This document shows, piece after piece, positions 1,878-59,900 of a stretch of 64,000 nt of DNA. Made by a program: the position numbers and the translations under genes. The DNA is from Candidatus Chloroploca asiatica (GTDB lineage: Bacteria; Chloroflexota; Chloroflexia; Chloroflexales; Chloroflexaceae): positions 1 to 64,000 of the forward strand of contig NZ_LYXE01000062.1 in NCBI RefSeq assembly GCF_002532075.1. Reading direction: 5' to 3'. The notes below the pieces were generated by a model. That model made no database searches and had not been told where the DNA came from. It worked only from the letters and a program-made list of their open reading frames with translations. How positions within the stretch are numbered: the first letter of the stretch is position 1; the number at the start of each line of letters is the position of its first letter.

Positions 1878-1984
1878 CAGATTCTTGCCTTACGACAAAC
1901 ATGTTCTTAAACCTCCTCTTCGAGCATGTTGGTTCTCGTCCTGCCTGCACGGAAAGTGCGGGAGAGCCACTTTTCACTTGACAA

Positions 1985-2345: not shown

Positions 2346-2440
2346 ACGGAAAATTGCCTTTTGTGCATCCTGAGCCAGCAGGCGAAGTCGCGACAGCCAT
2401 TCCCCGCAAAATCTCGTCTTGAACCTTTGCGCCTCTGCGC
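2344..2440. repeat. Repeat E copy 1
   Basis: A segment of about 80 bp starting CACGGAAAATTGCC and ending GTCTTGAACC recurs at about 5077-5157 and 7328-7410. Each copy follows a half copy of repeat A and leads directly into the CTTTGCGCC arm of repeat B. It may be a fragment of an unidentified gene. Confidence 0.7.
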
Positions 2441-2447
2441 CCTTGCG

Positions 2448-2735
2448 TCAAAATGCGCGCCGCACGACCGCTACCACGCGCTCGAGGTCTTCCAGGGTGA
2501 GGTTCGAGCCCGAGGGGAGGCAGAGGCCGTCGCGGAAGAAGCTTTCGGCGACGCTGCCCCCGCTGCGTTCGTAGCGTTCAAAGATGGGCTGGAGGTGCAT
2601 TGGTTTCCACCCTGGGCGCGCTTCGATGTGCTCGGCTTCCAGGGCCACGCGGATTGCCTCGCGATCAGTGCCGCTTTGCGCCGGGTCAATGGTGATCACC
2701 GTGAGCCAGCGCGTGTGCCGCCCCCACGAGGGTGT
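2448..2735 (-). pseudogene. PglE-like aminotransferase, C-terminal fragment 1
   Basis: The minus strand encodes about 90 residues matching the end of a DegT/DnrJ/EryC1/StrS sugar aminotransferase: RWLTVITIDP, then DREAIRVALEAEHIEARP, WKPMHLQPIFERYER and the terminal GLCLPSGSNLT block. No N-terminal or PLP-lysine region is present. The stop codon TGA is supplied by the adjoining repeat B (TTTTGACGC). Nearly identical tails occur at 7431-7722 and 8886-9029, so this is a duplicated 3' fragment. It is not derived from the intact wbpE-like gene at 23-24 kb, whose C-terminus differs. Confidence 0.75.
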
Positions 2736-2905
2736 TTTGACGCCAAGACGCAAGGGCGCAAAGGTTGATTTGAACCTTTGCGCCTTCGCGTCAAAAACAG
2801 CCGGTCCCCCCGCCGCCCACACCAAAAACGCCGGGGCACCCAGGCGAGGCCCTGGCAACACGGCGTTTGATAGACGCCAAGACGCAAAGATATAACATTT
2901 GCGTC
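2736..2905. repeat. Composite of repeats B-C-B
   Basis: Repeat B is an imperfect palindrome of the form TTTTGACGCCAAGACGCAAG ... CCTTTGCGCCTTCGCGTCAAAA. Repeat C lies between two B copies and is itself palindromic (AAAAACGCCGGGGCACCCAG ... CAACACGGCGTTT, about 2815-2870). The same B-C-B order is reused at several places up to 9.9 kb. Confidence 0.75.
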
Positions 2906-2958
2906 TTGGCTCTCAGCTTCGGGCGAGAAGGATCTCGCCAGATCACACGATGCTCTTG

Positions 2959-2964
2959 TATAAT
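2959..2964 (+). promoter_or_regulatory. Candidate -10 box for vapB/vapC-like pair
   Basis: TATAAT occurs 39 bases upstream of the antitoxin ATG. The -35 region is weak, so this is a candidate only. Confidence 0.35.
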
Positions 2965-3002
2965 ACCTGCAACCACACAAGTCAGTGAACAAGAGGCCGC
3001 CG

Positions 3003-3218
3003 ATGCAAGCTTATCGTGTAGAAACGACCATTGCGCCTGATGGCTCAATCAAAATTGTCAATCTCCCCTTTCCGCGTGGCGAAGCCGTTGAAGTCATTAT
3101 CCTGCTGCCAGAATCACGCACGACGACAACTGAGCGCTATCCCCTCCGGGGCACACCAGTTGTCTATCATGCCCCCTTTGAGCCCGTGAGTGAAGATGAC
3201 TGGAGCATCCTTCCATGA
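3003..3218 (+). CDS. Small antitoxin-like protein upstream of PIN toxin
   Basis: Short protein of 71 residues starting MQAYRVETTIAPDGSIKI. The N-terminal third looks like the beta-rich start of small Chloroflexota/cyanobacterial antitoxin partners (a PDG-x-I then LPF-x-x-GE-x-VEVIIL pattern). A GTG at 2985 in frame is an alternative start. Its stop overlaps the ATG of the following PIN gene (ATGA at 3215-3218), the typical arrangement of an antitoxin-toxin operon. Its role, neutralising and probably co-repressing the downstream toxin, is inferred from this arrangement. Confidence 0.65.
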   Translation: MQAYRVETTIAPDGSIKIVNLPFPRGEAVEVIILLPESRTTTTERYPLRGTPVVYHAPFEPVSEDDWSILP

Positions 3219-3706
3219 TCATCCTCGATACGCACATCTGGGTCTGGTGGATCCACCAAGATCAGCAACTCCCAACAGGCTACGAGGAATATATTCGTCA
3301 TCACGAAGCACAAGGTTTGGGCATTAGTGCCATATCCTGTTGGGAAGTTGCTAAATTGGTTGAGTATGGCCGACTGACGCTGCCAATGGGCATCGCGGAT
3401 TGGATGCAACGTGCGCTCTCCTACCCTGGTATGCGCTTGTTACCACTCACACCAGAGATTGCGATTGCGTCTACCCAGTTGCCACCACCTTTTCATAGAG
3501 ACCCTGCCGATCAGCTTATCGTCGCAACAGCTCGTACCTATGATTGTCCATTAGTTTCACTTGATGGCAAGATACGTACATACCCATACGTTCGTACTGA
3601 GCCTCAGAGCAACAGCCCTGCCGATGCCGCAGCAGGCAACATTCATGCGTCGGGACAAGGCTCGGCAGGAACAGCGCATGACACCCATCCTGTGCAACCA
3701 GATTGA
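3215..3706 (+). CDS. VapC-like PIN-domain toxin
   Basis: Predicted PIN-domain ribonuclease of 163 residues. The acidic residues of the fold are present: Asp in MIILDTHIWVWW, Glu in SCWEVAKL, Asp in HRDPADQLIVATAR and Asp in LVSLDGKI. The PIN fold should end near residue 130, but the frame continues for about 30 low-complexity residues (SNSPADAAAGNIHASG), an unusual tail that may come from sequence joined to the gene end during local rearrangement. It is translationally coupled to the small gene before it. Known relatives cleave RNA and are held inactive by the antitoxin. Confidence 0.8.
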   Translation: MIILDTHIWVWWIHQDQQLPTGYEEYIRHHEAQGLGISAISCWEVAKLVEYGRLTLPMGIADWMQRALSYPGMRLLPLTPEIAIASTQLPPPFHRDPADQLIVATARTYDCPLVSLDGKIRTYPYVRTEPQSNSPADAAAGNIHASGQGSAGTAHDTHPVQPD

Positions 3707-3739
3707 TCAAGTTGCACGATGCTCCGTCGCGTGAGGGTA

Positions 3740-3893
3740 AACCTGGGATCCCCGCCACCCACACCAAAAACGCCGTGTCGACTAGGGATGTGCCCTGGCA
3801 ACACGGCGTTTGATAGACGCAAAGACGCAGAGGCGCCAAGATCTTTTTTTACCTTTGCGCCTTCGCGCCTTGGCGTCAAAATGTCCCCCCGCG
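3740..3893. repeat. Composite of repeats C and B
   Basis: Repeat C (about 3745-3812, CCGCCACCCACACCAAAAAC ... ACACGGCGTTTGATAGACGC) runs into a B palindrome (about 3812-3880). The composite ends exactly where a wecA tail fragment begins at its stop codon. Confidence 0.7.
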
Positions 3894-4062
3894 CTACACC
3901 GCGTTGCGCTGACCAACGGTGCGTTCGGTGACGACGACGGTGCGCCACAGCAGGGCGGCGCTCAGCAGCGGGACGAGGCTTGCGGCGATCTCACGGCCAG
4001 GCACGGCACGCATCCAGAGCAGGGCGCGCTTCGATGTGCTCGGCTTCCAGGGCCACGCTGTT
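3894..4062 (-). pseudogene. Chimeric remnant: wecA-like tail joined to pglE-like piece
   Basis: On the minus strand, 3894-4027 encodes the last 40 or so residues of a WecA-like transferase (PLLSAALLWRTVVVTERTVG ... QRNAV stop), nearly the same as the end of the intact gene at 9906 but diverged just upstream (AVPGREIAASL against AVPGSASAASI). Immediately next to it, 4030-4062 matches an internal piece of the pglE-like fragment (VALEAEHIEARPG) in another frame. Two unrelated gene tails have been joined without a gap, evidence of illegitimate recombination in this region. Confidence 0.7.
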
Positions 4063-4318
4063 TTGACGCCAAGACGCAAGGGCGCAAAGATCTTTTTTTA
4101 CCTTTGCGCCTTCGCGCCTTTGCGTCAAAATGACAGGTGTTCCGGAGGGTTTAACTCAGAGGCACGGAGACGCGGAGGCGCAGAGATTCAAGAGGAGCCA
4201 CGATCTTCCGGTTGTTTGTTGGAAACCAGGGCCTGCAAATCTCGCGTCAACGGAACGAAACGCCGAGCGGATCGCAATGCATCATCAGCACTTTGTTGCG
4301 TAGATAAAGCCCAAGGCA
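4060..4318. repeat. Repeat B copies and repeat F copy 1
   Basis: A B palindrome (about 4063-4130) is followed by a half B starting GTTCCGGAGGGTTTAACTC and then by repeat F (about 4196-4318; it contains GTTGGAAACCAGGGC and CGTCAACGGAACGAAACGCC). F recurs at about 6716-6838, again between B and A, so a block of about 180 bp was duplicated. F may be a gene fragment, but I do not recognise it. Confidence 0.65.
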
Positions 4319-5076
4319 TCCTCCTTGTCACCCCGATGCGCCAGCCATGTCACCCCGAGCGGAGCGAGGGGTCTTCCATGCGTAGCAATGAAGATTCCTC
4401 ACGCCGTTCGGAATGACATGGATGGCGTTGGTAGCCCCGCTGCGCCAGCCATGTCACCCCAAGGCATCCTCCGCCACCCCAAGGCATCCTCCGTGTCATC
4501 CCGCCGCGCCCGCCGTGTCACCCCGCCGCGCCAGCCATGTCACCCCGAGCGCAGCGAGGGGTCTTCCATGCGCCGCAGGGAAGATTCCTCACTCCGTTCG
4601 GAATGACATGGATGGCGTTGGTAGCCCGCTGCGCCCGCCGTGGGCCCCCATCGCGCACCCCTGCCCCCCACTGCGCCAGCACTGTCACCCCGAGCGCAGC
4701 GAGGGGTCTTCCATGCGTAGCGAGGGGGCTTCGATGCGCCGCAGGGAAGATTCCTCACTCCGTTCGGAATGACATGGCTGGCGTTGGTAGCCCGCTGCGC
4801 CCGCCGTGGCCCCCCATCGCGCACCCCTGCCCCCCGCCGCGCCAACAATGTCACCCCGAGCGCAGCGAGGGGTCTTCCATGCGCAGCGAGGGGTCTTCCA
4901 TGCGCCGCAGGGAAGATTCCTCACTCCGTTCGGAATGACATGGATGGCGTTGGCACCCCGCTGCGCCCGCCGTGGCACCCCAAGGCATCCTCCTTGTCAC
5001 CCCGCCGCACCAGCCATGTCACCCCGCTGCGCCAGCCATGTCACCCCGAGCGCAGCGAGGGGTCTTTTATGCGCGG
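4318..5076. repeat. Repeat A cluster 2
   Basis: Four full or expanded palindromes (4349-4418, 4539-4608, 4683-4773, 4849-4940) and a half copy (5038-5072). The copies at 4683 and 4849 have an internal duplication of the GCGAGGGGTCTTCCATGCG loop segment. Spacers consist of CACCCCGCCGCGCC-type units and CCAAGGCATCCTCC units. No gene is supported here. Confidence 0.85.
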
Positions 5077-5384
5077 CACGGAAACTTGCCTTTGGTGCAT
5101 CCTGAGCCAGCAGGCGAAGTCGCGACAGCCATGCCCCGCAAAATCGCGTCTTGAACCTTTGCGCCGTTGCGCCTTGGCGTCAAGATCACCGCCGTTCCCC
5201 CCGCCACCCACACCAAAAACGCCGTGTTGCCCAGGGACTTGCCCTGGCAACACGGCGTTCCGGAGGTTGTAACGCAGAGGCGCGGAGTTTCCTCTTGAAT
5301 CTCTGCGCCTTGGCGCCTTGGCGTCAAAATGCGCACCGCACCACCACCGGCACGCGCTCCAGGTCGGCACCATATGCTGCCAGA
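5077..5384. repeat. Repeats E, B, C and a short pglE-like scrap
   Basis: Repeat E copy 2 (5077-5157) leads into a half B, repeat C (about 5197-5265) and another B (about 5268-5330). The piece at about 5330-5382 reads on the minus strand as a degraded pglE tail (DLERVPVVVRCA). The whole block repeats the order seen at 2.3-2.75 kb. Confidence 0.6.
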
Positions 5385-5885
5385 TCAAGCGTCTTTCTCA
5401 CCTGCCAATTTCAGCGTCTCCTCGTATAAATCAAGCGCAAGATGAAACCCGCATCGCTGTAAGTCATCTAAGAGTGGCTGAACTGCTACAATCAGACCGG
5501 CCTTTTTTGCCCTTATCAGGATACCAATAACTCCTACAACGCTCACTTCCAAACGCTCGGCGAACAGACGCGCCTGGCGATCATCCAGCCCAGCCACATA
5601 GCCCACATGCGACCTGGCATAGGCTATCACAGCTTGCTCACCTGGCCCCAGCCGATTAGGTGGTAAGGCAGCTTGTTCACTGTGATCAACAGAGACCGCC
5701 AGCATCCAATTGAACTTGCCAGGATTGATCGTATCTGGCCGCATCAAGCGCCCCATGTCCAACTCTAAGCAAACCAACTCCGGCACATAGACCGGTTCAA
5801 AAAGAGCGTGAAGCAGACCGATCTGACCGATGCGATCCAGATACAGCAACAGGGTGGTATCGCAAACCAAAGGCCGTCTACTCAT
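5385..5885 (-). CDS. DUF3368-like PIN nuclease, toxin of UPF0175 pair
   Basis: Protein of 166 residues starting MSRRPLVCDTTLLLYLDRIG, with the early Asp and hydrophobic strand of a PIN-like fold, then LGPGEQAVIAYA and AGLDDRQARLFAERL, where the Glu and Asp pair lies in the place expected for DUF3368 proteins, and VVGVIGILIRAKKAGLI in the second half. It starts inside the end of the preceding UPF0175 gene (8-base overlap), the standard arrangement of this toxin-antitoxin type. The expected role is an RNA-cutting toxin silenced by its partner. It appears complete. Confidence 0.75.
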   Translation of the reverse strand: MSRRPLVCDTTLLLYLDRIGQIGLLHALFEPVYVPELVCLELDMGRLMRPDTINPGKFNWMLAVSVDHSEQAALPPNRLGPGEQAVIAYARSHVGYVAGLDDRQARLFAERLEVSVVGVIGILIRAKKAGLIVAVQPLLDDLQRCGFHLALDLYEETLKLAGEKDA

Positions 5886-6132
5886 CGGCTAACTCGCGGT
5901 GCAGATCTTCCCCCGTGATTGCCGACACAGGAATATCGTAGTCAGCACACAAATCCAAAAACATCATGCGTGGCACACCTGCCATATGGGCCGCAGCACC
6001 GGATGAGAGTTTACCTATACGAAAGAGCATCAGCGCCGCGTACAGCCGCATATCACGCGCCAGTTCTTCCGGTGTCCGATTAAGCATCTGCGGAATATCC
6101 CCTGGCAACTGTATTTCCACTACATCGTACAT
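5878..6132 (-). CDS. UPF0175-family antitoxin
   Basis: Protein of 84 residues starting MYDVVEIQLPGDIPQML. I chose the ATG at 6132 because it has GAGGAG just upstream and because UPF0175 proteins start in this way; a longer in-frame extension to 6213 has no good ribosome site. The order ELARDMRLYAALMLFRIGKL then AAHMAGVPRMMFLDLC is the family's predicted helix-turn-helix-like core, normally used to bind the operon's own promoter and the PIN partner. It is coupled by overlap to the DUF3368-like gene downstream. Confidence 0.75.
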   Translation of the reverse strand: MYDVVEIQLPGDIPQMLNRTPEELARDMRLYAALMLFRIGKLSSGAAAHMAGVPRMMFLDLCADYDIPVSAITGEDLHRELADE

Positions 6133-6425
6133 CGTTGTCTCCTCTGCCAAGCGATGGCCCTGCCCATCCATCGTGTAGCCTATCGCCCACTGCCGAGCAA
6201 ACGGGCGCGACATGTGCGTGTTTACGCTTTTCCTGGGAATGAGGGCAGCTTGCCCTCATACGCACGACGAGGGCGGGACGCCCTCGCGCCAAGGCTTGTA
6301 GGTTCCCCCAAGCTGGCACCGGGGCGGCACACCCTACACCTAAACATCCGTCAGCAAGTGCGATAGCAAAGCTATGGGGGTAGTGTACCGCACCACGAGC
6401 AGAAAATCCACCCGTCGCGCAAGGC
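6133..6425. other. Intergenic stretch, no gene seen
   Basis: No convincing gene. It holds the leader of the UPF0175 operon and a GC-rich inverted element around 6240-6290 (GAGGGCAGCTTGCCCTC and GAGGGCGGGACGCCCTC), two short hairpins in tandem that may end or insulate transcription. Confidence 0.5.
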
Positions 6426-6838
6426 CGACGCCACGGCGTTCCGGAGGTTGTAACGCAGAGGCACAGAGACGCGGAGGCGCAGCGTTTCTTTTTCGACCTT
6501 CGCGCCTTGGCGCCTTTGCGTCAAGATCACAGCCGTTCCCCCGCCACCCACACCACAAACGCCGTGGCACCCAGGCGAGGCCTTGGTACCACGGCGTTTT
6601 GGGGTGTACCACAGAGGCACGGAGACGCAGAGTTTCTTTCTTTACCTTTGCGCCTTTGCGTCAAGATGATAGGCGTTCCGGAGGTTGTAACGCAGAGGCG
6701 CGGAGGCGCGGAGGTTCAAGAGGAATCCGGTTCTTTGTTGGAAACCAGGGCTTGCACATCGCGCGTCAACGGAACGAAACGCCGAGCGGATGGCAATGCA
6801 TCATCAGCACGTTGTTGCGTAGATAAAGCCCAAGGCAT
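6426..6838. repeat. Composite of repeats B-C-B and repeat F copy 2
   Basis: A B palindrome (about 6435-6535) is followed by C (about 6540-6600), B (about 6610-6668), a half B (6670-6716) and F (6716-6838). The block B-F-A is the same order and nearly the same sequence as 4138-4330, a segmental duplication. Confidence 0.7.
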
Positions 6839-7327
6839 CCGCCGTGTCACCCGCCGCGCCCGCCATGTCACCCCGCTGCGCTCTCCCTGTCACCCCACTG
6901 CGCCAGCACTGTCACCCCGAGCGCAGCGAGGGGTCTTCCATGCGCCGCAGGGAAGATTCCTCACTGCGTTCGGAATGACATGGATGGCGTTGGTAGCCCG
7001 CTGCGCCAGCCATGTCACCCCGCCGCGCCCGCCGTGGCCCCCCATCGCGCACCCCTGCCCCCCGCTGCGCCAGCACTGTCACCCCGAGCGCAGCGAGGGG
7101 TCTTCGATGCGTAGCAATGAAGATTCCTCACTCCGTTCGGAATGACATGGATGGCGTTGGCACCCCCGCTGCGCCCGCCGTGGCACCCCAAGGCATCCTC
7201 CTTGTCACCCCGCCGCGCCAGCAATGTCACCCCGCTGCGCCAGCCATGTCACCCCGAGCGTAGCGAGGGGTCTTCCATGCGCCGCAATGAAGATTCCTCA
7301 CTCCGTTCGGAATGACATGGCTGGCGG
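6838..7327. repeat. Repeat A cluster 3
   Basis: Three full palindromes at 6910-6980, 7077-7147 and 7247-7317, in the same orientation as the other clusters and separated by the same CCGCTGCGCC-type spacers. No coding function is supported. Confidence 0.85.
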
Positions 7328-7430
7328 CACGGAAAATTGCCTTTTGTGCATCCTGAGCCAGCAGGCGAAGTCGCGACAGCCATTCCCCACAAAATCTCGT
7401 CTTGAATCTTTGCGCCTCTGCGCCTTGGCG
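7328..7430. repeat. Repeat E copy 3 and half B
   Basis: Repeat E (7328-7410) and the CTTTGCGCCTCTGCGCC arm of B bridge cluster A to the second pglE tail. The whole run 7300-7722 is a near copy of 2330-2735. Confidence 0.65.
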
Positions 7431-7722
7431 TCAACATGCGCGCCGCACGACCGCTACCACGCTCTCCAGGTCTTGCTCGGTGAGGTTTGAGCCCGAGGGG
7501 AGGCAGAGGCCGTCGCGGAAGAAGGCTTCGGCGACGCTGCCCCCACTGCGTTCGTAGCGTTCAAAGATGGGCTGGAGGTGCATTGGTTTCCACCCTGGGC
7601 GCGCTTCGATGTGCTCCGCTTCCAGCGCTACGCGGATTGCCTCGCGATCAGTGCCGCTTTGCGCCGGGTCAATGGTGATCACCGTGAGCCAGCGCGTGTG
7701 CCGCCCCCACGAGGGTGTTTTG
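7431..7722 (-). pseudogene. PglE-like aminotransferase, C-terminal fragment 2
   Basis: Second tail of the DegT/DnrJ-type aminotransferase, about 95 residues, with the same start (TPSWGRHTRWLTVITIDP) and end as fragment 1 and a few substitutions (LTEQDLESVVAVV instead of LTLEDLERVVAVV). It lacks the PLP-binding half. It again ends in a TGA formed by the neighbouring repeat. A further scrap of the same end (DLERVVAVVRLLID) lies at about 7793-7843 after a B copy. Confidence 0.75.
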
Positions 7723-7865
7723 ACGCCAAGACGCCGAGGCGCAAAGATCTTTTTTCGACCTTCGCGCCGCTGCGCCTTGGCGTCAATCAACAGCCGTACC
7801 ACTGCGACGACGCGCTCCAGATCAGTGAGGCGGTTACGTAGGTGGCATGAGCATGGAGATCGCGG
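7723..7865. repeat. Repeat B copy and aminotransferase scrap
   Basis: B palindrome at about 7720-7788, then about 50 bp of degraded pglE tail on the minus strand, ending just before the tumE-like gene. Confidence 0.55.
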
Positions 7866-8252
7866 TTATGCGTCAAGTTCTTGTTGAATCAGGTCAATTA
7901 GTTCCAGAATGCTCAGTACCTGACCCGGTTCAATGCTGCCAGTTTCGCCAATATGCACATGATCGGGAAAATTGGGCAAGTTGGGATAATGCGGGGCATT
8001 ATCCCAGCGTTTTCTCAGCAGGCGGCGTTCAGCATCCATCCACTGATATCGGTATTCCGTCGTTTGGATCCGTGCTTGCCTGCTCTGGAAGAATTCGGCA
8101 ACTTCGAGAAAGTCATGGTTGCAGAGCGTCAGTCTTGCTCGGAAGAAGCCCTGGGTGGGGGTGGCATATTCCTGTATGATATCAATATGCACAACGAGGG
8201 AACTGCTCGCAAGCTTGGCTTTCAAGTCAGCCAGGTAGTCTTGTGTGTCCAC
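7866..8252 (-). CDS. TumE-like (DUF6516) toxin
   Basis: Protein of 128 residues with a GTG start that directly follows the stop codon of the upstream partner (TAG then GTG). The pattern SSLVVHIDIIQEYATPTQGF, then FFRARLTLCNHDFLEVAEFF, YRYQWMD and the C-terminal RWDNAPHYP with FPDHVHIG matches DUF6516/TumE proteins, described as toxins of a small two-gene system. It appears full length. The upstream gene TumA is the likely antitoxin. I have only sequence pattern for this, not a search. Confidence 0.7.
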   Translation of the reverse strand: MDTQDYLADLKAKLASSSLVVHIDIIQEYATPTQGFFRARLTLCNHDFLEVAEFFQSRQARIQTTEYRYQWMDAERRLLRKRWDNAPHYPNLPNFPDHVHIGETGSIEPGQVLSILELIDLIQQELDA

Positions 8253-8576
8253 CTAGCCACCCGCTGCGTTCAGGAGGTTGATCTGCTCCTGGGTCGCTAA
8301 CCACATCTGGTAGAACGCACTCCATTCAAAGAAATCGGCTTCATCACCCAGTTCCCCTGCTTGAAACTGGCGATAGAAATCCTCAGAAGAGAACTGATAC
8401 CGCTCCTCAAATTCATGAAGAGTCGCTGTCAGTCGTGCGAAGGCTTGTTTGGCTTGTGTCTGTTCTCGAGCGATAAGTTGCTCAATCGTGGTATCAATCA
8501 TGTCACTGTGGTATCCACGACGATAGAGTTGTTCCAACGATTGGATCTTACGTAAGGTCTGTTGGCCGGAGGTCAT
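8253..8576 (-). CDS. TumA-like antitoxin
   Basis: Protein of 107 residues, predicted almost entirely helical, starting MTSGQQTLRKIQSLEQLYRR and ending NLLNAAGG. The motif RYQFSSEDFYRQFQAGELG followed by DFFEWSAFYQMW is typical of the partner genes found next to DUF6516 toxins. It has a strong ribosome site, AAGGAGGG, just before its ATG. Upstream on the same strand TTCACA and TATGAT near 8610-8630 may be the operon promoter. Confidence 0.65.
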   Translation of the reverse strand: MTSGQQTLRKIQSLEQLYRRGYHSDMIDTTIEQLIAREQTQAKQAFARLTATLHEFEERYQFSSEDFYRQFQAGELGDEADFFEWSAFYQMWLATQEQINLLNAAGG

Positions 8577-8885
8577 AGACGCCCTCCTTGGGTCACGGCT
8601 TCATACCATCTATGCCTTCCAGGATATCATATCTTTGTGAACCATACCAGGGATGCGCTTTGAACCTTGGCGCCGTTGCGTCAAAATGACAGGCGTTCCG
8701 GAGGTTTTAACGCAGAGGCGCAGGGTTTCTTTTTCTACCTTTGCGCCTTTGCGTCAAAACGCCCCCGCCACATACCAAAAACGCCGTGGCACCCAGGCGA
8801 GGCCCTGGTACCACGGCGTTTGATAGACGCAAAGACGCAGAGGCGCAAAGATCTTTTTGAATCTTTGCGCCTCTGCGCCTTTGCG
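8577..8885. repeat. Composite of repeats B-B-C-B
   Basis: After about 70 bases of tumA leader the stretch holds half B copies (8650-8760), C (about 8765-8825) and a full B palindrome (8825-8885). No gene is supported. Confidence 0.65.
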
Positions 8886-9029
8886 TCAAAATGCGCGCCG
8901 CACGACCGCTACCACGCGCTCGAGGTCTTGCTCGGTGAGGTTCGAGCCCGAGGGGAGGGAGAGGCCGTCGCGGAAGAAGGCTTCGGCGACGCTGCCCCCG
9001 CTGCGTTCGTAGCGTTCAAAGATGGGCTG
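8886..9029 (-). pseudogene. PglE-like aminotransferase, C-terminal fragment 3
   Basis: Third and shortest copy of the aminotransferase tail, about 46 residues (from IFERYERSGGSVAEAFF to the end). It breaks off at 9029 where sequence from the hepT-like remnant region begins. The nucleotide match to fragments 1 and 2 is very high. Confidence 0.7.
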
Positions 9030-9061
9030 AATAACAATGACCACCCTGAATCGCTGCTCGC

Positions 9062-9196
9062 TTACTCCTCTTCCTCCAGAATAAAGAGGATATGTTGGTG
9101 AAGTACGGGTATCTTATTGATTATGACATCGTACACGATATCATAATCAATTCCAAAATAAGCATGAATGAGGCGATCACGTACGACGCGAGACAT
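9062..9196 (-). pseudogene. HepT-like HEPN toxin, C-terminal remnant
   Basis: A 44-codon frame, MSRVVRDRLIHAYFGIDYD ... LEEEE, overlaps the end of mntA. It contains RDRLIHAYFG, the R-x4-6-H active-site motif of HEPN nucleases, plus the short tail that normally follows. About 60-70 N-terminal residues of a normal HepT are missing, so a deletion has probably joined the 3' end of mntA to the last third of hepT. It is unlikely to fold as a HEPN four-helix bundle by itself. An alternative is a very short HEPN variant. Confidence 0.65.
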
Positions 9197-9488
9197 ATTC
9201 AACCTCTTGGAGAATACGCGGCCCGAGATAGGGACTTAATGAGTCAGCGGTAATCAGGTCAACCGGTCGTCCAAAAAGGTCTTCGAGATACCAGGCGAGT
9301 TGGATAAAATTATCAAATGTTTTCTGAGCTGGGTCAAACTCCACAAGCACATCAATATCGCTCTCGGCATGCGCTTCATTCCGGACAAACGAGCCAAAGA
9401 GTCCGTAGCGGGTCACACCATAGCGCCGAATAGGGGCTTCGTGCGCGGCAAGCAGGGTCAGGATTTCCTGTTTTGAGGTCACGGGCAT
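9177..9488 (-). CDS. mntA: MntA-like minimal nucleotidyltransferase antitoxin
   Basis: Protein of 103 residues of the minimal nucleotidyltransferase family. The signature GSFVRNEAHAESDIDVLVEF carries the GSxxR and DxD residues that bind nucleotide and metal. I chose the ATG at 9488 because GGAGG lies ten bases upstream; an ATG at 9506 is possible. In known HepT-MntA pairs this enzyme adds AMP groups to the HEPN toxin and so silences it. Here only a fragment of hepT remains, so the antitoxin may be a relic or may act on a toxin elsewhere. Confidence 0.75.
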   Translation of the reverse strand: MPVTSKQEILTLLAAHEAPIRRYGVTRYGLFGSFVRNEAHAESDIDVLVEFDPAQKTFDNFIQLAWYLEDLFGRPVDLITADSLSPYLGPRILQEVEYVSRRT

Positions 9489-9905
9489 CTCTTTTTGCCT
9501 CCGCATGCGCCGACGGTCTCCCAGGGTTTCTGGTGAGATAGTATAGCATAGCGGCCATCGTCCTGGGGTGTTTTGCAGGTACCACGGCGTTCCGGAGGTT
9601 TTAACGCAGAGGCGCGGAGACGCGAAGGCGCAAAGATCCTTTTTGAACCTTTGCGTCTCTGCGCCTTTGCGTCAACCCCCCCGCCACCCACACCAAAAAC
9701 GCCGTGTCGCCTAGGGATGTGCCCTGACCACACGGCGTTTGATAGACGCAAAGACGCAAAGATCTTTTTTACCCCTTTGCGCCTTTGCATCAAAATGACA
9801 GGCGTTCCGGAGGTTTAACGCAGAGGCGCGGAGGCGCGGAGGCGCAGCGTTTCTTTTTTTACCTCTGCGCCTCTGCGTCTCTGCGTTAAAAAATGTCCTC
9901 CCGCG
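9489..9905. repeat. Composite of repeats B-C-B-B at the wecA 3' end
   Basis: After the mntA leader (to about 9580) the stretch holds B (about 9585-9675), C (about 9680-9745), B (9745-9795) and a last B palindrome (9810-9892), which ends beside the stop codon of the intact WecA-like gene. It may act as a terminator for the polysaccharide locus. Confidence 0.65.
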
Positions 9906-10967
9906 CTACACCGCGTTGCGCTGACCAACGGTGCGTTCGGTGACGACAACGGTGCGCCACAGCAGGGCGGCGCTCAGCAGCGGGACGATGCTTGCGGCGC
10001 TCGCACTGCCAGGCACGGCGCTCATCCAGAGCAGGGCGATGATCACGCTGAGCACGGCCCATCCAAGGTAGAGCAGAGTGACGCTGCGGTGACTCCATCC
10101 GGCGATGACGAGGCGTTGGTAGAGGTGCGAACGGTGCGCGGCGAAGATGTTTTCGCGGCGCTGGAGACGGCGTAGGATGGTGAAGGTGGTGTCAAAGACA
10201 AACGGCCAGACGACGAGCACGCCCGCTGCGGCTAGGCGGGGATCTTCGACGGCCCCAAAGACGGCCACGGCTGCCAGGGTGAAGCCAAGGAAGGCACTGC
10301 CAACATCGCCCATAAAGATGCGCGCTGGCGGCCAGTTGTGCCCGAGAAAACCAAGGCTGCTGCCTGCGATCAGGGCACCCATCAACGTGAGCAAGGGTAC
10401 GTCAACGATGAGGCCAAGGGCAAACCATCCCAAACCCGCTACGACCGCCTGCCCGCCGGCGAGCCCATCAATGCCGTCCATAAAGTTGTAGGCGTTTGTG
10501 AGGCCAGCGAGCCAGAGGAAGGTAATCGGGAGGCCTAACCATCCGAGGGTGAAAGAGGGCAACAGGGGCACATCAAGAACGCGCCAGAAGCCAACAAAGA
10601 TCAAGATGAGCAGCGCACCAATGGCATGGGCACCAAAACGCACCCGGTTCGCGACAGGGCGCAGGTCGTCAAGCCAACTGATCCACGCGATCAACGCCGC
10701 ACCCACAGTGAACGCACTGATTTCGAGGAGCAAGTCACGCAAATCAAATAGCACAACAGCAAGCCACAACCCAGCAAACGTCACTAGCACAATCAGCAAA
10801 CCACCCCCGCGCGGGGTTGGCCGGGTATGCGAACTACGCTCGTTGGGAATATCAAGCATGCGCTGCTCAGCCCAGCGACGAAAGAGCATCACACCTACAT
10901 ATGAAAGCGTTGCTGCAATAAAGAATGGAACAAGCCTCCAAAAAATCTCAGTCACTACTGGCCCCAC
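9906..10967 (-). CDS. WecA/MraY-like undecaprenyl-phosphate sugar-1-phosphate transferase
   Basis: Integral membrane enzyme of 353 residues, with about ten membrane segments, that should start repeat-unit synthesis by moving a HexNAc-1-phosphate from a UDP-sugar to undecaprenyl phosphate on the inner face of the membrane. Family motifs are intact: DDLRP near residue 100, NAYNFMDGIDGLAGG near 158-172, FMGDVGSAFLG near 218 and HRSHLYQR near 278. It is the last gene of the long minus-strand locus, 45 bases after the SDR gene. A copy of its last 40 codons lies at 3894-4027, showing that a close paralogue or duplicate existed. Confidence 0.85.
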   Translation of the reverse strand: MGPVVTEIFWRLVPFFIAATLSYVGVMLFRRWAEQRMLDIPNERSSHTRPTPRGGGLLIVLVTFAGLWLAVVLFDLRDLLLEISAFTVGAALIAWISWLDDLRPVANRVRFGAHAIGALLILIFVGFWRVLDVPLLPSFTLGWLGLPITFLWLAGLTNAYNFMDGIDGLAGGQAVVAGLGWFALGLIVDVPLLTLMGALIAGSSLGFLGHNWPPARIFMGDVGSAFLGFTLAAVAVFGAVEDPRLAAAGVLVVWPFVFDTTFTILRRLQRRENIFAAHRSHLYQRLVIAGWSHRSVTLLYLGWAVLSVIIALLWMSAVPGSASAASIVPLLSAALLWRTVVVTERTVGQRNAV

Positions 10968-40304: not shown

Positions 40305-40620
40305 GCGGGCGCTGCGCCCCGCCCTGGGGGACTATGCTCCGCAGGGGGTCTTGCGATCAACAGACTGCTTGCGGGCGCTGCGCCCCGCACCCAACCCAAG
40401 GGTGGGTTGCTCCGCAGGGGGTCTTGCGATCAACAGACTGCTTGCGGGCGCTGCGCCCCGCACCCAGCCCAAGGGTGGGTTGCTCCGCAGGGGGTCTTGC
40501 GATCAACAGACTGCTTGCGGGCGCTGCGCCCCGCACCCCGCCCAAGGGGGGCTGCTCCGCAGGGGTTTGTGGGGGACAACAGACTGCTTGCGGGCGCTGC
40601 GCCCCGCACCCCGCCCAGGG
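40305..40620. repeat. Tandem repeat, 73-bp period, about 4.3 copies
   Basis: Units begin with GCGGGCGCTGCGCCCC at 40305, 40371, 40444, 40517 and 40590 (spacings 66, 73, 73, 73). Each ends in GGTCTTGCGATCAACAGACT or a variant. Every unit carries a GGGCGCTGCGCCC palindrome. Open frames across it are products of the repeat. Confidence 0.85.
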
Positions 40621-40823
40621 GGCGCTGCCCCCTGGACCCCCGCGAAGGGGCGTTGCCCCTTTCGAAACCCCAAGTTTGGCGCGGTGCTGGCGTTTTTAGG
40701 TGGTGGCGCATGCCTCGTGGCGATAGCCATGGCGGGCGGCGTGTTTCAGCTTTCTGCTTTCAGCTTTCAGCTTTCCCTCTTGCTGTTAGCTATGGCGGGC
40801 AGCAATTTGCGCGCACGACACGC
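40621..40823. other. Palindromic tail of tandem repeat and non-coding gap
   Basis: A GGGGCGCTGCCCCCTGGACC and GGGGCGTTGCCCCTTTCGAA pair of hairpins at about 40620-40675 continues the repeat. The rest, with CAGCTTTCTGCTTTCAGCTT short iterations near 40746-40780, shows no gene. Confidence 0.5.
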
Positions 40824-46317: not shown

Positions 46318-49300
46318 CTACCGTCCGCCAACCCGTGCGCTCGCTTTGAGGTCACCGCCTCGCGTCACAACCACAATGCCCTCTTCACGCAACAGCGCGA
46401 GGTCACGTTTGATCGTGCGCACATTGACCTCCAGGACACGCGCAAGCTCCTCAAGGGTCGCAAAACATCCTTGAGCGATGGCCTCACCAGAGAGGCGGAG
46501 CAGGCAGGTATGGCGGCGGGCAATGCGGTCAACAGGATCATCCGGGGCCTCAATTGTCCAGACGACCGGGTGCAACTCATCAGGTTGCAGGGGGCGTCCG
46601 GTTGGTGCATGTCGTAGGGGGAGCCAGGCGAGACAGCGCGGGCGCTGGACAACCGGCTGGCAAGCTAGCTCCAGGTCAAATGGTTGCAGAGCAAGCAATG
46701 TACGACGTACCTCAGGCTCTTTATTATACCCCAATTCAGTAAGCAATGTGTCAAGAGCATGGGCACGCACGGTTGCTGCCTCGGTGGGGGCGTGGCACGC
46801 GGCGAGCACGCCAGCGATCCGCCAGCGGGTCATTGCCGGGGACCAGTGCGGGAGGCTCGGCTCAACGAGGTTGGCCGCAGCGCGGGCATAGGCAAGGGCG
46901 CGGTCAGGCTCACCTGCTGCGGCATAGACTTCGGCAGCCAGCACGATGCCCTCAACTGGCAGCGGCGGGATACCAGATGCATCAAGCGGCAGCAAGGTCG
47001 CATAGGCTTCGCATGTCTGGCCCAGCCCCAACTGTGCCGCCGCGACCAGGGTCTCCTGAAATGCCGCACCAGGCAAGCTAGCCAGGCGACGGGTCAACGC
47101 AACCCCCTCGCGGGCCAGCGCGAGCGCCTGCTCATACTCGTGCAACGCCAGGAGGTTCAGGGTCATACTGGCAAGCAACAGCTTGAGCGGGGCAAGCAAG
47201 CCGGCCTCGCGTACCAACGGCAACGTCGTCGCCCCAAGCAAACGGCTCTCTTCAAACGCCCCAACCAGGGCAAGCGTATGCACAAGCCGGGCCCGCACCT
47301 CCAACTCAACGCGCTGATCGTCAGCCAGTTGCGCCTGGAAGAGCACCGCACGCAACAGCGCCAGCCCCTCGCCATACCGGCGCTGGCTCAGACAAACCAA
47401 TGCCTCCACCAGCAACGCCCGCGACGCCAGCAGTGGTATCGTCGCCAGCGCAGCAGCATCAACCAGGTGCGCCATCACCGCAGCCGCCTCTTCAACCCGG
47501 CTTGCCGCAAGCAAAGCGGCAACGAGGTTCAAGCGCGCTTCGGTCAAGCTCGTGGATTGAGCATGGAGGCCATTGTTGGAACGCACGCTGGCCCCGCATC
47601 CAACCTCCATCGCCGCAAGCTCAACAGCCCGCTGCGCATAGCGCACGCCCTCATCATACGCCTCACTGATCGCCAACACCTCCGCCAGCGCCAGTGACGC
47701 CTGCGCCTCAAGCCGCGTCAACCCGGCGCAACGCGCCTGGGCCAACGCCTCACGGAGCACCCGCTCGCCCTCCGCAGGATCAACCAGCGTCCCGCGGGCC
47801 AACCCGACGCAGATCAACGCCTCGATCTGCCAATCCTCCCGCCCGGCAGCCTGTACCTCTTCAAGGAGCAGGTCTGGTGCCGAAGCACCCCTCGACGTGA
47901 AGGTGGGATACGCTCTTGGGGCGAGGCCCCCCACCCCCAACCCCTCCCCCACGAGGGGGGCGGGGAGTGAGGACAGCGCCGCCGCACGCGGCGGCTCCCC
48001 GCCTCTCTCACCAGGAGAGAGGCGGGGCAGGGGGGGAGAAGGGGAAAAAGCCATCAAGCGCGCCACGTCCCAGCGTCGGGCATGGCCGACGGGGAGGTTC
48101 AGCGCTTGCACGGCGGCGCTGGCAAAGCCAAGGCTGCGTTGGGCCAGGGGCAACGACCCGGTGGCAAGGGCGGCATACGTTGCATCGAGGGCCTCGTCGA
48201 GCACGGCATCCCACAGGTGGCCTAGGGCGCTATGGGTAAGTCGCTCGAAGCGCAGCGCCACCGGACGATCCAGCGCAGGGCCAAGCGCCGTGGCGAGTTG
48301 GGCGTGCAAGGTACGCCGCGCTTCAGGGTCCAGGCGCTCAAGCAGATACACCCCGAGGTCAGGGTGGACCAGACGCAGATACTGGCCCCGTTCGATCAGC
48401 ACCCCGGCGATCAGCAGGTCAGACAGCAGGGCCACCCGCTGCCCCGGCTCAGGCCAGAGCGCCTCGATCAGGTTCTCATCGGCAGGGCGCCCAAGCAGCG
48501 CAAAGGTACACGCCATCATCCATGCCGCAGGCGCAAGCCGTGCGACTTGCCAGCGCATCAACGCGGGCATCGTTGTGGGGAGGGGAAAATCCGGCCTGAT
48601 GAGGCCCCATCCCGTCGGTGGGTCATACCAGAGCACCTGATGTTCATAGAGAACGTGGATCAGGCCCAGGAGCAACCCGGGATGACCACCACTGCTCGTG
48701 AGCAAGCGGTCGCGCAATGCAGGGGCAATGCGGCCACCTACGGCAGCCTGGGCCAGGCGCATCGTCGCCTGGGGGTCAAGCGGCTCAAGGGCCAGCAGGC
48801 GCAGGGGCAAAAGGATCGGTCGGCGCATCGTCGCCACAGGGAAACTCGCCTCACCGGGGGGCGCCGTCAAGACCACGCAGAGGGCTCGTGGGCCGGCGAG
48901 CAAGCGGATCACGAGTTGTCGCAGCGCCTGATGATCACCAGGAAAATCATCGATCACGAGCAGCAAGGCACCCTGTGCAGCCACGTGATCGAGCAACGCG
49001 ACCAGGGCCTGCAGCGGATCAAAACGAAAGCCCTGCGCACGACGCAGCGGCTGCGGCACACGCTCGGGCAGCATCTCGCGCAGACGGGGCATCTGGCGAC
49101 AGAGCAGATGCCACTGCTGGTCATCAAGACGCGCACAGGCGGCCCGCAGATAGACACGAGCCGTACGGCCAGCGCCGAGCACCCCATCTTCAAAGAGTTC
49201 CCAGATATCGTGCGCTCCCGTACGAGGCGTCAACCAGAGGACAGTCCACGAAGCGCGCAGGCGCACCTGGGCGGCAAACTCCTGCACCAGACGCGTCTTG

Positions 49301-54389: not shown

Positions 54390-56369
54390 ATGCGTAAATT
54401 CTATCTCCTGCTCCTCCTCGTTCTGCTCCTCATTGCACCACTGCTTTCCCTCCCTCGACCTACCACCGCCCAGGGCTTGCCCTGGCAAGATAAGAGCACG
54501 CCCTTTGGCGTGGTGGCCGCGTTGGGCAACCGGGTGCGTAGCGATGAGATCCCTGCTGCGGTTGCGCTCATGCGCGAGGCCGGGGTACAGTGGCAACGCG
54601 AGGAAATCTTCTGGCACGAGGTGCAGAAAGAGCCCGGTGGCCCCTATCGCTGGGACGGCAATGAGCAGGGGATGTACAATTACGATCTGGCCATCAGCGC
54701 GCAGCGACGGGCCGGCATCAACATTCTCGGGTTGCTCACCTACAATCCCGCCTGGTTCAAAGGGAAGAATCCCACCCCCGAGGAATGGATTACCGACTGG
54801 GGCGATTATGTCTACCAGACCGTCGCCCGTTATGGCCGGGAACGCAACCAGATCACCTACTGGGAACTCTGGAACGAACCGAATCTCGCCGCCTCCGGCT
54901 ACGAGAGCGGGCTTTATACGGTCGCCGATTTTGTGCGCATTCTGGAGGTCGGGCGAGCGGCGGCGCTGGCAGCGGATCCACGCGCAAAGATCGTGATGGG
55001 TGGGCTGTCGAGCATCTGGAGTGTGCCGCCCTCTGAGCATTACTACGACTATTTTGACTATCTCGACCGTGTGGGTCAGCTTGGTGGGTGGAAGCATGTC
55101 GACATTATCGCGATCCACCCGTATCGACCCGATGCACCGGAGGGCGACGCATGGCGGCGCGATCAATCGCTGACCTTCGGCCAAGAGATGCAACGGCTCG
55201 ACGCCATTCTGCGCACCTACGGGGCTAAACCGGTCTGGTTGACCGAGTGGGGTTGGACAACGACGCGCAGTTGGCAAGGCGTTGACGAGGATACACAGGC
55301 GTTTTTTTTGGTGCGATCGTACCTGCATGCCATTGCCCATCCAAGCATCGAAAAGGTCTTCTGGTACGATTTCCGCAACGACACCCAGCCCGAAGCGCCG
55401 TATGATCGTCCGGTCTACGACGAGGATGAAGCCGAATTCCACTACGGCCTGCTCCGTCGCAGCTATCCACTCGATCCCAATCGAGCCGATCTGCGCAAAC
55501 CAGCCTTTGTCGCATACCGGACGATGACCGAAATGCTGGGCGGGCTGAGTCTGCGGGAAGTGATCCGGCATGGCGACGAGGGGATCTACTGGCACCGTTA
55601 CAGCGGCAACGGGCGACGGGTGGATGTCATCTGGCGTACCGGCAATAGCATTCCAGCACTCGAGGTCGCGTGTGGATGTCGCCAGGCGCTCGTACGAAGT
55701 TGGAACGGCCAGGTGCAACACATTCTCACCAGCAGTGCGGGAATGCTCACCCTGCATCCTGACGCCCTGGGAGCGCCACTTTATGTCGAGTACGACCAAC
55801 CACCGCGGCATCCTGGCATCTTCGAGGCAACAGGACACAGCCTTGGGGGGGCCTTCCGCACCTTCTGGGAGCGGCGGGGCGGCTTAGCGCGATTCGGCTA
55901 CCCGTTGACGGAAGAAGTGATCGAACCAGAACCGGGCACCGGACGACCGCGGATCGTTCAGTATTTCGAGCGCGCCCGGTTCGAATACTTCCCCGAGCTA
56001 CGGGGGAGCGCGTACGAAGTGCAACTAGCGCGCCTCGGCGACACCGCGCTGCAACGCCAGGGCCTCGACTGGCGCAGCCTACCAAGCACTGAGAATCCCG
56101 ACCCAGGCTGCCAATGGTTTCCCGAAACGGGCAAACAGCTCTGCCCGCCGTTCCTGGAAGCGTGGCAACAGGCAGGCGGGCTTGATCTCGCGGGGCTCCC
56201 GCTGACCGATGCCTTCTTTGCCACCGGCGCGACCGGGGGAACCTACCGAATTCAATACTTCGAGCGCGCGCGTATCGAACACCACCCGGCCAATGCAGGA
56301 ACACCGTACGAAATGCAATTTGGCTTGCTCGGGCGGGAACAATTTATTCGGTACGATCGGATGCCATAA
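54390..56369 (+). CDS. Secreted clan-A glycoside hydrolase with two C-terminal FGYPLT-type modules
   Basis: Protein of 659 residues. A signal peptide ends near PTTAQG. Residues 35-340 form a TIM barrel of the GH5/GH39 type: VALMREAGVQWQREEIFWHE, ITYWELWNEPNLA with the acid/base Glu, HVDIIAIHPYRPD and KPVWLTEWGWTT with the nucleophile Glu. A beta-rich linker follows. From about residue 480 come two copies of the shared module (IFEATGHSLGGAFRTFWERR, GLARFGYPLTEEVIEPE, VQYFERARFEYFPE; then FPETGKQLCPPFLEAW, IQYFERARIEHHPA). It probably acts on glycans of the cell surface. Confidence 0.8.
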   Translation: MRKFYLLLLLVLLLIAPLLSLPRPTTAQGLPWQDKSTPFGVVAALGNRVRSDEIPAAVALMREAGVQWQREEIFWHEVQKEPGGPYRWDGNEQGMYNYDLAISAQRRAGINILGLLTYNPAWFKGKNPTPEEWITDWGDYVYQTVARYGRERNQITYWELWNEPNLAASGYESGLYTVADFVRILEVGRAAALAADPRAKIVMGGLSSIWSVPPSEHYYDYFDYLDRVGQLGGWKHVDIIAIHPYRPDAPEGDAWRRDQSLTFGQEMQRLDAILRTYGAKPVWLTEWGWTTTRSWQGVDEDTQAFFLVRSYLHAIAHPSIEKVFWYDFRNDTQPEAPYDRPVYDEDEAEFHYGLLRRSYPLDPNRADLRKPAFVAYRTMTEMLGGLSLREVIRHGDEGIYWHRYSGNGRRVDVIWRTGNSIPALEVACGCRQALVRSWNGQVQHILTSSAGMLTLHPDALGAPLYVEYDQPPRHPGIFEATGHSLGGAFRTFWERRGGLARFGYPLTEEVIEPEPGTGRPRIVQYFERARFEYFPELRGSAYEVQLARLGDTALQRQGLDWRSLPSTENPDPGCQWFPETGKQLCPPFLEAWQQAGGLDLAGLPLTDAFFATGATGGTYRIQYFERARIEHHPANAGTPYEMQFGLLGREQFIRYDRMP

Positions 56370-56936
56370 GGGGCACGGGCGGCGCCGTACGGGCACGGCG
56401 CCGCCGTGCCCCAACACGGAAGGGCACGGGCAAGCCGTGCCCCTACCACGCGCCCCCGTGCCCCACCTCGCCCGTGTCCCACCAACGCAGGGCACGGGCA
56501 AGCCGTGCCCCTACCACGCGCCCCCGTGCCCCACCACGCCCGTGTGCCACCACGCCCGTGCCCCACCAACGCAGGGCACGGGCAAGCCGTGCCCCACCAC
56601 GCCCGTGCCCCACCTCGCCCGTGTGCCACCAACGCAGGGCACGGGCAAGCCGTGCCCCTACCACGCGCCCCCGTGCCCCACCTCGCCCGTGTGCCACCAA
56701 CGCAGGGCACGGGCAAGCCGTGCCCCTACCACGCGCCCCCGTGCCCCACCTCGCCCGTGTGCCACCAACGCAGGGCACGGGCAAGCCGTGCCCCTACCAC
56801 GCGCCCCCGTGCCCCACCTCGCCCGTGTGCCACCAACGCAGGGCACGGGCAAGCCGTGCCCCTACCACGCGCCCCCGTGCCCCACCACGCCCGTGCCCCA
56901 CCAACGCAGGGCACGGGCAAGCCGTGCCCCTACAGC
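56370..56936. repeat. Minisatellite, 68-bp period, about eight copies
   Basis: Units carry GCAGGGCACGGGCAAGCCGT (a GGGCACGGG..CCGTGCCC palindrome), CCCCTACCACGCGCCCCCGT and CACCTCGCCCGTGTGCCACC. The last five are spaced exactly 68 bp (about 56629, 56697, 56765, 56833, 56901); earlier ones vary. It fills the whole space between the 3' ends of the hydrolase gene and the histidine kinase gene. Long open frames across it are repeat translations. Confidence 0.85.
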
Positions 56937-59900
56937 GAAACGCGGATCTCTTCTAATACGAGGATTGTCACGGCATGCAATTGCTCGATCCTGGCGAGGT
57001 GCCCTTGGATATCGTTGATTGCGTCGGCGCGGGCCTCTTCTTCCAGGATGCGCGATGCTTCTGCCAGGGGTTCGGCACCGACCAGTTTGCTGGTTGATTT
57101 CAATGTATGGGCCGCTCGGCGAATGCGGGCCAGATCGTCATCGACAATCGCCTGGCGCAACTGTGCGATCAGGCTGCTCGCTTCCGACGTGAAGAGCGTG
57201 ATGAACTGGACGATCATGGCAGGGTCACTGCCACCCTGAATAGTGCCGAGCAGTTCGAGCGTTGCGCGGTTGATATAGACCGAGGCCGATGGCATGTCAG
57301 GAACTGGCGCGACCACCGGCTCGGCAACTGGCTCATACGAGGAGCCCGCCAGGGACGCATACGAGGAGTCACCCAGTGACGCATACGAGGAGTCACCCAG
57401 TGACGCATACGAGGAGTCACTGTCAGGATCAGGCAAGAGTTGCCAGTCGCTCTCTGGTGCCGCAACGGGGCCAGGGTCAGGATGAACTTCGGGGGCATGC
57501 AGCGCTTCGTGCCGCATCAGGGCGGCATCGAGCGCTTCGATCCGTACTGGCTTGCTAATGTAGTCGTCCATGCCAACCGAGAGGCAAAGCTCGCGGTCGC
57601 CACTCATCGCATTCGCGGTCATGGCAATGATATATGGGCGCTGCGAGGGTTCCATCCGGCTGACAATGCGTTTCGTTGTCTCGATTCCGTCGAGCTCGGG
57701 CATTTGCAGGTCCATCAAGACCACATCGTAGGGCTGGCGCTCGAGCGCATCGAGGGCCTCGAGGCCATTAGCAGCTAGGTCGGCATGGTAGCCGAGGCGC
57801 TCAAGCATGCGCACAGCCACCAGTTGGTTGACGGCATTATCTTCGACCAACAGCAACCGGACACGGGCACGTACCTGCTGCCTGGGAACTTCAAGCGCAT
57901 CAAGCTCGTGGGTCTGCTCCTGGGGTGACACCAGACCCAGAGCTTCAAGCAAGGTACGATGCAGGGCGGCCCGTTTGATCGGGCGACGCAAGAAGAGATA
58001 TGTATGCTGCGTTGGCAAGGCCTGCGCGCCAGGGGCAACCATCAGGATCAAAGCCGTCTTGGATGCTTCTAGATGGTGACAGAGCTTTTGGAGCACCCTG
58101 GTACGCTCAGGTTCTTCACAGATAGTTCCAATCAGGGCGACATCAACGGGATGCCCCTCGACCAGCCAGGTGTGGACTTCTGACACGGAAGCGAGAGGGT
58201 GCGCAACCACACCCCAGTGCTCGCAGTGGTGCATCAGCATCTGGCGGGCCGCCGGATTGCGTTCGACAATCAGCGCCTCACGCCCAAAGAGACTCGGCCC
58301 ATCCTGGTCAAGCTCAGCCTGACGCGCATCACGCACAAGCGGGAGCGTAACGGTAAACCAGAAGGTACTACCAACCCCAACCTCGCTCGACACCCCAATC
58401 TGGCCCTGCATCAATTCACAGAGCCGTTTGGAGATCGCGAGCCCGAGGCCCGTGCCACCATAGCGCCGGGTCGTACTGGCATCAGCCTGGATGAACGCCT
58501 GGAAGAGCCGGTCAATCGTCTCGGGAGGAATGCCGATGCCGGTATCCTGGATCTCAAACGTCAACTGCATCTCGGTTGGCGTCGGTTGAGACCAGTCACC
58601 TGACCAATCAATGGTGTTCGGCAAGTGTTCGGCAGCGCGCACCGTCAGGGTAACATCACCTTGCGCCGTAAACTTGACCGCATTGCCAAGCAGATTCAGA
58701 AGGATTTGGCGAATCCGGGCAATATCGCCCAACAGCATCCGTGGCACACCTGGTTGGATCAGGCAGGTAAGATCGAGTTTCTTGGTCGCAGCGGTGGCCG
58801 CAACCATATCAAGCACCGTTTCGACACACTCTTCGAGATCAAACGGCATCTGTTCGAGTTCAAGCTTGCCCGACTCGATCTTGGAAAAGTCAAGGATATC
58901 GTTGATCAAACTGAGCAACGTTTCGCCGCCGTTGCGGATCGTCGTCACATATTCACGCTGCGCCTCGTTGAGTGGGGTCGAAGCGAGCATGCCAGCCATC
59001 CCGATCACCGCATTCAGCGGCGTCCGGATCTCGTGGCTCATATTGGTGAGGAACTCGCTGCGAGCCTGCGCGGCAGCCTCAGCGGCCTCTTTAAGTTGCA
59101 GGTTGGTCAGGGCCTGGCCCACGGCGGTGGCGACCCGCTCGGCCAGCGCAATCTCATCGGCATTGAAGACCCGTGTCTGGGGCGAAGAGAGCCCGATCGT
59201 CCCAATGACCATGTCGTTAATCAAGACCGGCACAATCAGCAACGAAACCTTGCGGCGCAACTTTGCGCCATTGGCATTGGGTTCACGTTGGGAACTGAGA
59301 TAGATGTCAGCAATCGCAACCGTCTCGCGGCGAGCGATCAGATCCTGGGTCAAGAGATTGCCCCGAATCGGAATCACCGAACCAATCACCGAAGGCCCGG
59401 TCTCATCACGATACTCGGCCACCACCGTCTGCGCCGTCCGGTCTTCATTCAACAGGGCGCAGAGCGCCTGGGGGACATCGAAGGCATTGGCAAGATCGAC
59501 ACAGATGCGTTGGAGCGCCTGCCGCATATCGGGGGCCGTCGCGATCACACTCATCATCCGGTTGAGCAACAAGGTTTCGCGTACAACACGCTGCTGATCA
59601 CCGCGGAAGCGGGTACGCTCAATCGCCTTGCCCACATCGTCGCAGAGCGTATTCAGAAAGCGGAGATCGCTCTCGGTCAAGGTATCAGCCTCGTGGCGCA
59701 CCACCGCAAGCACCCCAACGAGCCGATCAATCCCCCTGATCGGCAGTACCGCCAGCGAGAGTGGATCAGGGGAAGGAGCCGCACGCCATTGACAGGCATC
59801 AGGAATCAGCAACGGCTCGCCAGTGCGCACCACCGCTCCAATCGGACTCTCGGCGAGGCTATCGTCCCAGCAACTCACATCGGCCCCGAGACGATGTTCG

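Follow-up and report, generated by a model that had tools for sequence, protein, structure and literature searches.

How a regulator gene can carry a block of palindromic DNA within an open reading frame, and how such a block would come to be there, are the questions raised by a long ORF on the reverse strand of the window (the whole 64,000-nucleotide stretch of DNA analyzed). A preliminary description had reported about 45 Pro/Gly-rich codons with hairpin DNA inside an unbroken regulator, and the ORF, its composition, and its predicted fold bear this out. The regulator combines a BTAD (SARP-like) domain, an AAA_16/STAND ATPase domain, a helical C-terminal region, and a C-terminal helix-turn-helix (HTH), for which HTH_DeoR scores above and HTH_11 slightly below the cut-off (Table 1); despite the insert, the ORF is uninterrupted across its full length. 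The insert encodes MAFSPSPPLPRLSPGERGGEPPRAAALSSLPAPLVGEGLGVGGLAPR, with a Pro plus Gly content of 38% versus 13% for the whole regulator protein and a GC content of 76% versus 65%, and none of 200 dinucleotide shuffles of its coding strand is predicted to fold as stably (z = -3.5). The predicted structure of residues 480-1000 has a mean pLDDT of 47, a model too poor to show disorder. We think the best overall explanation, to which we assign a probability of roughly 60%, is that an in-frame pair of TM palindromes sits in a linker of the regulator, and that such palindromes spread through units carrying a DUF559 nuclease gene.

Table 1. Features of the regulator gene and its insert (positions in the window)
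Feature	Coordinates	Strand	Residues or basis
Host regulator gene, 1,297 aa	46318-50211	-	ORF and domain search
BTAD domain, PF03704	49528-49896	-	Residues 106-228
AAA_16 domain, PF13191	48892-49407	-	Residues 269-440
In-frame palindromic insert, about 46 codons	47915-48052	-	Residues ~720-766
TM/BoxC unit A, inverted partner of B	47997-48044	+	Sequence, congener copies, fold
Extra palindrome GCCGCCGC-AC-GCGGCGGC, between units A and B	47978-47995	.	
TM/BoxC unit B	47927-47965	-	Consensus match at 47930-47964 and copies elsewhere
C-terminal helix-turn-helix	46357-46458	-	Residues ~1252-1285

The insert and the BoxC/PIT/TM repeats

BoxC/PIT/TM elements are intrastrand-triplex repeats known from more than 260 prokaryotes; the TM consensus, for repeats earlier named BoxC or PIT, is CCCTCNCCC N3-6 GGGNGAGGG N3 GGGNGAGGG (PMC4666352). 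Unit B departs from this consensus by two substitutions and is its sole match within the window. It comprises a hairpin, CCCCGCCCCCC-TCGT-GGGGGAGGGG, and a third strand, TTGGGGGTGGGGGG, and its encoded peptide is PAPLVGEGLGVGG. Unit A, a hairpin CCCCGCCTCTCTC-ACCA-GGAGAGAGGCGGGG with a G-rich tail, is degenerate in the window copy and well kept in the congener versions. Along the coding strand, unit A comes first, its C-rich tail ahead of its hairpin, followed by a GC palindrome GCCGCCGC-GT-GCGGCGGC, which is present in congener G001 and missing from congener G002, and then by unit B (hairpin, then third strand); the two units are inverted copies of each other, with both tails pointing outward. 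Congener copies read CCCTCCCCC, in which a change in the third block is the sole deviation from the consensus. The units thus belong to the TM consensus with some variation, and by its sequence the insert is an inverted pair of BoxC/PIT/TM palindromes plus a GC palindrome, with a predicted hairpin and a putative triplex.

Some version of the insert occurs in all three orthologues of the regulator, as would be expected if it were an ordinary linker, rich in Pro, Gly, and GC, whose palindromic look came from composition. However, the 40 simulated windows gave no match to the TM consensus at three or fewer substitutions, and only 7 of 2,000 simulated 138-mers with the insert's own composition gave one. 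Unit A is an inverted copy of unit B, and the same DNA units recur within and between other genes; we regard an ordinary linker as highly improbable. The window contains other repeats, including a dense direct-repeat mosaic at 1966-10038 (189-nt, 26-nt CCCCGCTGCGCCAGCCATGTCACCCC, and AAGGCGCAAAG..CCTTTGCGCC types), about four 73-bp units in tandem at 40309-40624, and tandem arrays of 68-bp and 24-bp units at 56336-56971 and 57329-57420, respectively.

Copies in other genes and the age of the insert

The repeat is dispersed. A DNA search of the window genome identified four more places matching the insert, additional copies were found in the congeners, and of 41 genomes searched, with the window genome counted, 36 have the TM unit in slightly differing versions. 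TM arrays lie at an end of several G001 contigs (e.g., C37 and C154). On sequence evidence, this genus hosts in-frame copies in at least two further genes, in different reading frames. The expectation that the same encoded peptide might be found in other genes was confirmed by GAGKRPSPLVGEGLGVGG in a PMT-like membrane protein (contig C105 of the window genome, and G001), three paralogues of which lack the unit. A C25 peptidase gene (contig C98 of the window genome), whose G001 and G002 orthologues differ in length, carries a copy in another reading frame, NSPPPSWGRGRGWGA, and this difference in frame between genes (PSPLVGEGLGVGG, PPPSWGRGRGWG) speaks against selection for a single peptide.

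Unlike the E. coli unit, the TM variant of this genus has no stops across all six frames. Seventeen of the 31 copies examined in the genus lie within long ORFs, in a sample partly chosen via host genes; a less biased count, restricted to loci found by DNA similarity in the window genome, gives three of five. The corresponding numbers in relatives are 2 of 29 in G012 and 0 of 22 in G022. Copies in G022 have 5.6 of the six frames open, yet none is in a gene, and we rejected freedom from stops as the sole cause of intragenic copies.

The regulator has orthologues in both congeners, at about 92-94% DNA identity, and each carries TM units at the insert site: one A-B pair in G002, and five units with extra sequence in G001. 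The insert therefore predates the split of these species, contrary to the suggestion that it might be very recent; every close orthologue identified carries it. The preliminary description had also weighed whether all orthologues might share the segment as a normal linker. All three do have it, but as a dispersed repeat whose copy number varies. The copies at this site are in frame in all three species, and their number and encoded length vary widely. dN/dS for the regulator is 0.13-0.18 upstream of the insert and 0.23-0.32 downstream, the latter indicating that the downstream, HTH-bearing half is under purifying selection, and the sequence is most simply read as one in which the frame through the insert is in use. 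It is very probable that a TM element entered the inter-domain linker before the genus diverged and has persisted in frame where it is tolerated.

Persistence might alternatively reflect a function in the regulator, with the insert retained as a flexible hinge or as a regulatory DNA/RNA structure in the mRNA. Its occurrence in three species, always in frame, and its strong predicted fold are as this would predict; set against them are the wide variation in copy number and encoded length between orthologues, the different frames of the copies in other genes, and the statement in PMC4666352 that earlier studies detected no promoter or terminator activity for TM motifs, which together leave a function improbable.

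We favor instead a tolerated TM pair, in which the insert would be a translated Pro/Gly-rich, probably disordered stretch of the regulator linker. It would be tolerated because the genus repeat is stop-free in six frames and the linker is permissive, and it would evolve as whole units are gained, lost, and duplicated, with only multiples of three surviving because the downstream HTH-bearing half is still needed. Translation of the insert, and its tolerance through disorder, are what we infer from these patterns; if it is translated, peptides such as AAALSSLPAPLVGEGLGVGGLAPR are expected in a congener. The window case would then illustrate how TM repeats can become protein sequence, lengthening a regulator without breaking it.

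DUF559 nuclease genes bracketed by TM palindromes

BoxC/PIT/TM repeats were first recognized decades ago, and we know of no established means by which they spread. In congener G001, an ORF holds a DUF559 domain among several TM units of the same variant as in the window. At G001 locus L056 (C93:41000-44783), a 711-aa ORF at the contig end has a DUF559 domain in frame amid many TM units, and the remainder of this ORF resembles a methyltransferase specificity part. DUF559 (PF04480; YcjD in E. coli) is a family of PD-(D/E)XK, Vsr-like nucleases (PMC1189080; PDB 3hrl), and the catalytic residues are present, D43, E54, D56, H60, and D67 being invariant in an alignment of 12 sequences.

DUF559 genes are associated with TM palindromes across many bacterial phyla. 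Around Chloroflexota DUF559 loci, palindrome density is about 3.4/kb within 150 bp and 0.1/kb beyond 500 bp. A set of 80 loci spans Proteobacteria, Chloroflexi, Dadabacteria, Planctomycetes, Gemmatimonadetes, and others; at 65 of them a palindrome lies no more than 200 bp from the gene (at 48, on both sides), and there are 6-7 palindromes/kb within 100 bp versus ~0.08/kb beyond 500 bp, about 80 times background; only 3 of 77 other intergenic gaps at these loci contain one. Uma2, a control nuclease-like family, has a palindrome at none of 30 loci in a phylum sample, versus 16 of 28 for DUF559 (p = 4e-7). TM-free DUF559 loci account for 15 of the 80 and, in one genus, for the majority of copies. 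A DUF559 tree of 115 sequences shows the association to be clustered yet widely recurrent (18 changes versus 28 when shuffled), and in Dyella the right palindrome encodes the C-terminus of the DUF559 reading frame.

The palindromes are also consistently arranged. Where orientation is readable, the tail points toward the DUF559 gene on the left by 40:7 and on the right by 36:7, and 25 TM pairs face inward with 1 facing outward; this fixed inward orientation suggests the ends of a unit. The left and right TMs of a locus resemble each other, with a mean longest match of 15.3 versus 10.4 ± 0.4 when permuted (0 of 2,000 permutations reach the observed value), and perfect terminal inverted repeats extend up to 55 bp.

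The unit can be present or absent at a single site. In genus g34, the unit at G113:C53 measures about 473 bp from left palindrome to right palindrome; comparing 19 genomes at this site, we found 4 filled and 15 empty, with the unit missing as one discrete block. In all but one or two empty sites the flanks are otherwise continuous over TM-free spacers of 23-115 bp, and G256 has a longer unrelated stretch in place of the short spacer. The flank tree needs four changes, at least three of which are forced by well-supported branches, so the unit came or went repeatedly at this site. The DUF559 gene of G266 is 68% identical to that of G113, with accompanying palindromes 95-98% identical. We saw no target-site duplication or clean excision, and the empty sites differ in their spacers; a DUF559 site in genus g9 (Chloroflexaceae-type) gave no informative flank matches. 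Palindromic runs of other kinds (GTTGAAGGTTGCAAG...CAACCTTCAACC; ACCGCTAAG...CTTAGCGGT) are frequent in the spacers of the g34 empty sites (L274-L293), which gives the impression that a single site accepts various small elements.

The association extends to E. coli K-12, where published TM no. 9 (1351204-1351239) is within the gap between fabI and ycjD, the latter a DUF559 gene. The full K-12 arrangement is missing from about 2,000 of 5,375 genomes. We rejected ycjD as the source of a clean empty site, as the ycjD-less strain examined has an RND pump operon there: where MG1655 has ycjD and the TM between fabI and sapF, strain ABU 83972 has a TetR/RND efflux operon.

We propose that a small mobile unit, of which the palindromes would be parts or remnants, accounts for their spread; it would consist of a gene for a DUF559 nuclease of the YcjD/Vsr-like PD-(D/E)XK or EDxHD type, enclosed by two TMs facing inward. 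Acting on TMs as folded single strands or as duplexes, the nuclease would cleave DNA at a TM or next to it, or introduce a nick into the folded palindrome, and repair or copying would then insert TM-DUF559-TM units, TM pairs, or single TMs. We consider it probable that TM-DUF559-TM is a mobile unit, with action of the enzyme on TMs and the steps of movement inferred from arrangement and distribution. That the window copy itself arose through such a unit is a more tentative proposal, about which we lean slightly to doubt; the window TM pair points outward whereas DUF559 pairs point inward, which counts against a DUF559 origin, and no DUF559 match was found in the window genome.

A serious rival is that DUF559 is a homing-type gene landing at pre-existing TMs, which would have spread by another route (replication slippage, recombination, or another factor), leaving the window insert unrelated to DUF559. 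The uncoupling of TM number from DUF559 presence fits such a scheme; we tried and rejected a dependence of TM number on DUF559 dose, finding no correlation (G012 has 258 copies without DUF559, and G003 four copies with two DUF559 hits), and the window genome has its copies without the gene. Vsr-like EDxHD homing nucleases are, moreover, a recognized group (PMC6083498), and two G009 DUF559 domains lie within intein-like insertions in DNA-methylase-like genes (L107:1767-2084 and L108:3205-3513; ...LTADHRVL ... VHNCGSGTT), a homing-endonuclease position. However, the TM-free empty sites of one genus indicate that there the TMs came or went with the gene, and the two TMs at each locus match each other in a fixed inward orientation. 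Homing into TM sites thus seems to us unlikely, and we prefer spread of the TMs by DUF559 units. Extending that reading, BoxC/PIT/TM repeats in general would represent the termini of a widespread DUF559-driven mobile unit and its non-autonomous relatives, in many phyla and including E. coli K-12, and the in-frame inserts of this genus its protein-coding by-products; we regard this wider claim as evenly balanced.

Comparison with known repeat systems

We found no report of the DUF559-TM link in the open-access papers searched, and earlier reports elsewhere are possible. Across phyla, the link gives both the repeat and the nuclease family, E. coli K-12 ycjD included, a testable role. The insert shares with the TM repeats of Holder et al. 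2015 (PMC4666352) the dispersed, three-block CCCTCNCCC-loop-GGGNGAGGG-loop-GGGNGAGGG structure, frequent inverted pairs, and instability between strains. The E. coli copies are all intergenic, a descriptive trait outside the consensus definition, whereas the window copy and others here are within long ORFs, several of them in frame, and the genus variant has TGG in place of TGA in its third block and is stop-free. That study, the largest on these repeats, also reports no mobility gene close to TMs and does not mention ycjD; the DUF559 nuclease association seen here is a further difference.

In-frame palindromes in genes are already known as Rickettsia palindromic elements (RPEs) and as tagged REPs in several phyla (PMC3733652). 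The analogy to RPEs that had been drawn for this insert is good for behavior, in that palindromic repeats lie in frame in unrelated genes and add tens of residues, but the family is different: this is BoxC/PIT/TM, the sequence and phylum differ, and the CGTC end tag of RPEs (PMC3733652) is missing from both unit ends. EDxHD/Vsr-like homing endonucleases, YcjD, and PDB 3hrl share a fold group and conserved D..ExD..H residues with the enzymes described here, most of which are free-standing between palindromes and not in introns or inteins. GTAG/CGTC-tagged REPs with their RAYT units (PMC3733652, PMC2817692) offer a close parallel in organization, with short palindromes in inverted orientation flanking a small gene, many loose copies, and reported intragenic copies. 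They differ in that the GTAG (GT(A/G)G) head and CGTC tag are missing here, and in that the gene between the palindromes encodes a DUF559 nuclease where RAYT units have a Y1 (PF01797) transposase; we rejected a RAYT/Y1 transposase as the mobilizer, there being five matches in the window genome but a palindrome at none of the eight Y1 loci examined in this group. We propose that the TM-DUF559-TM unit may be a second system of the RAYT/REP kind, with an enzyme unrelated to theirs.
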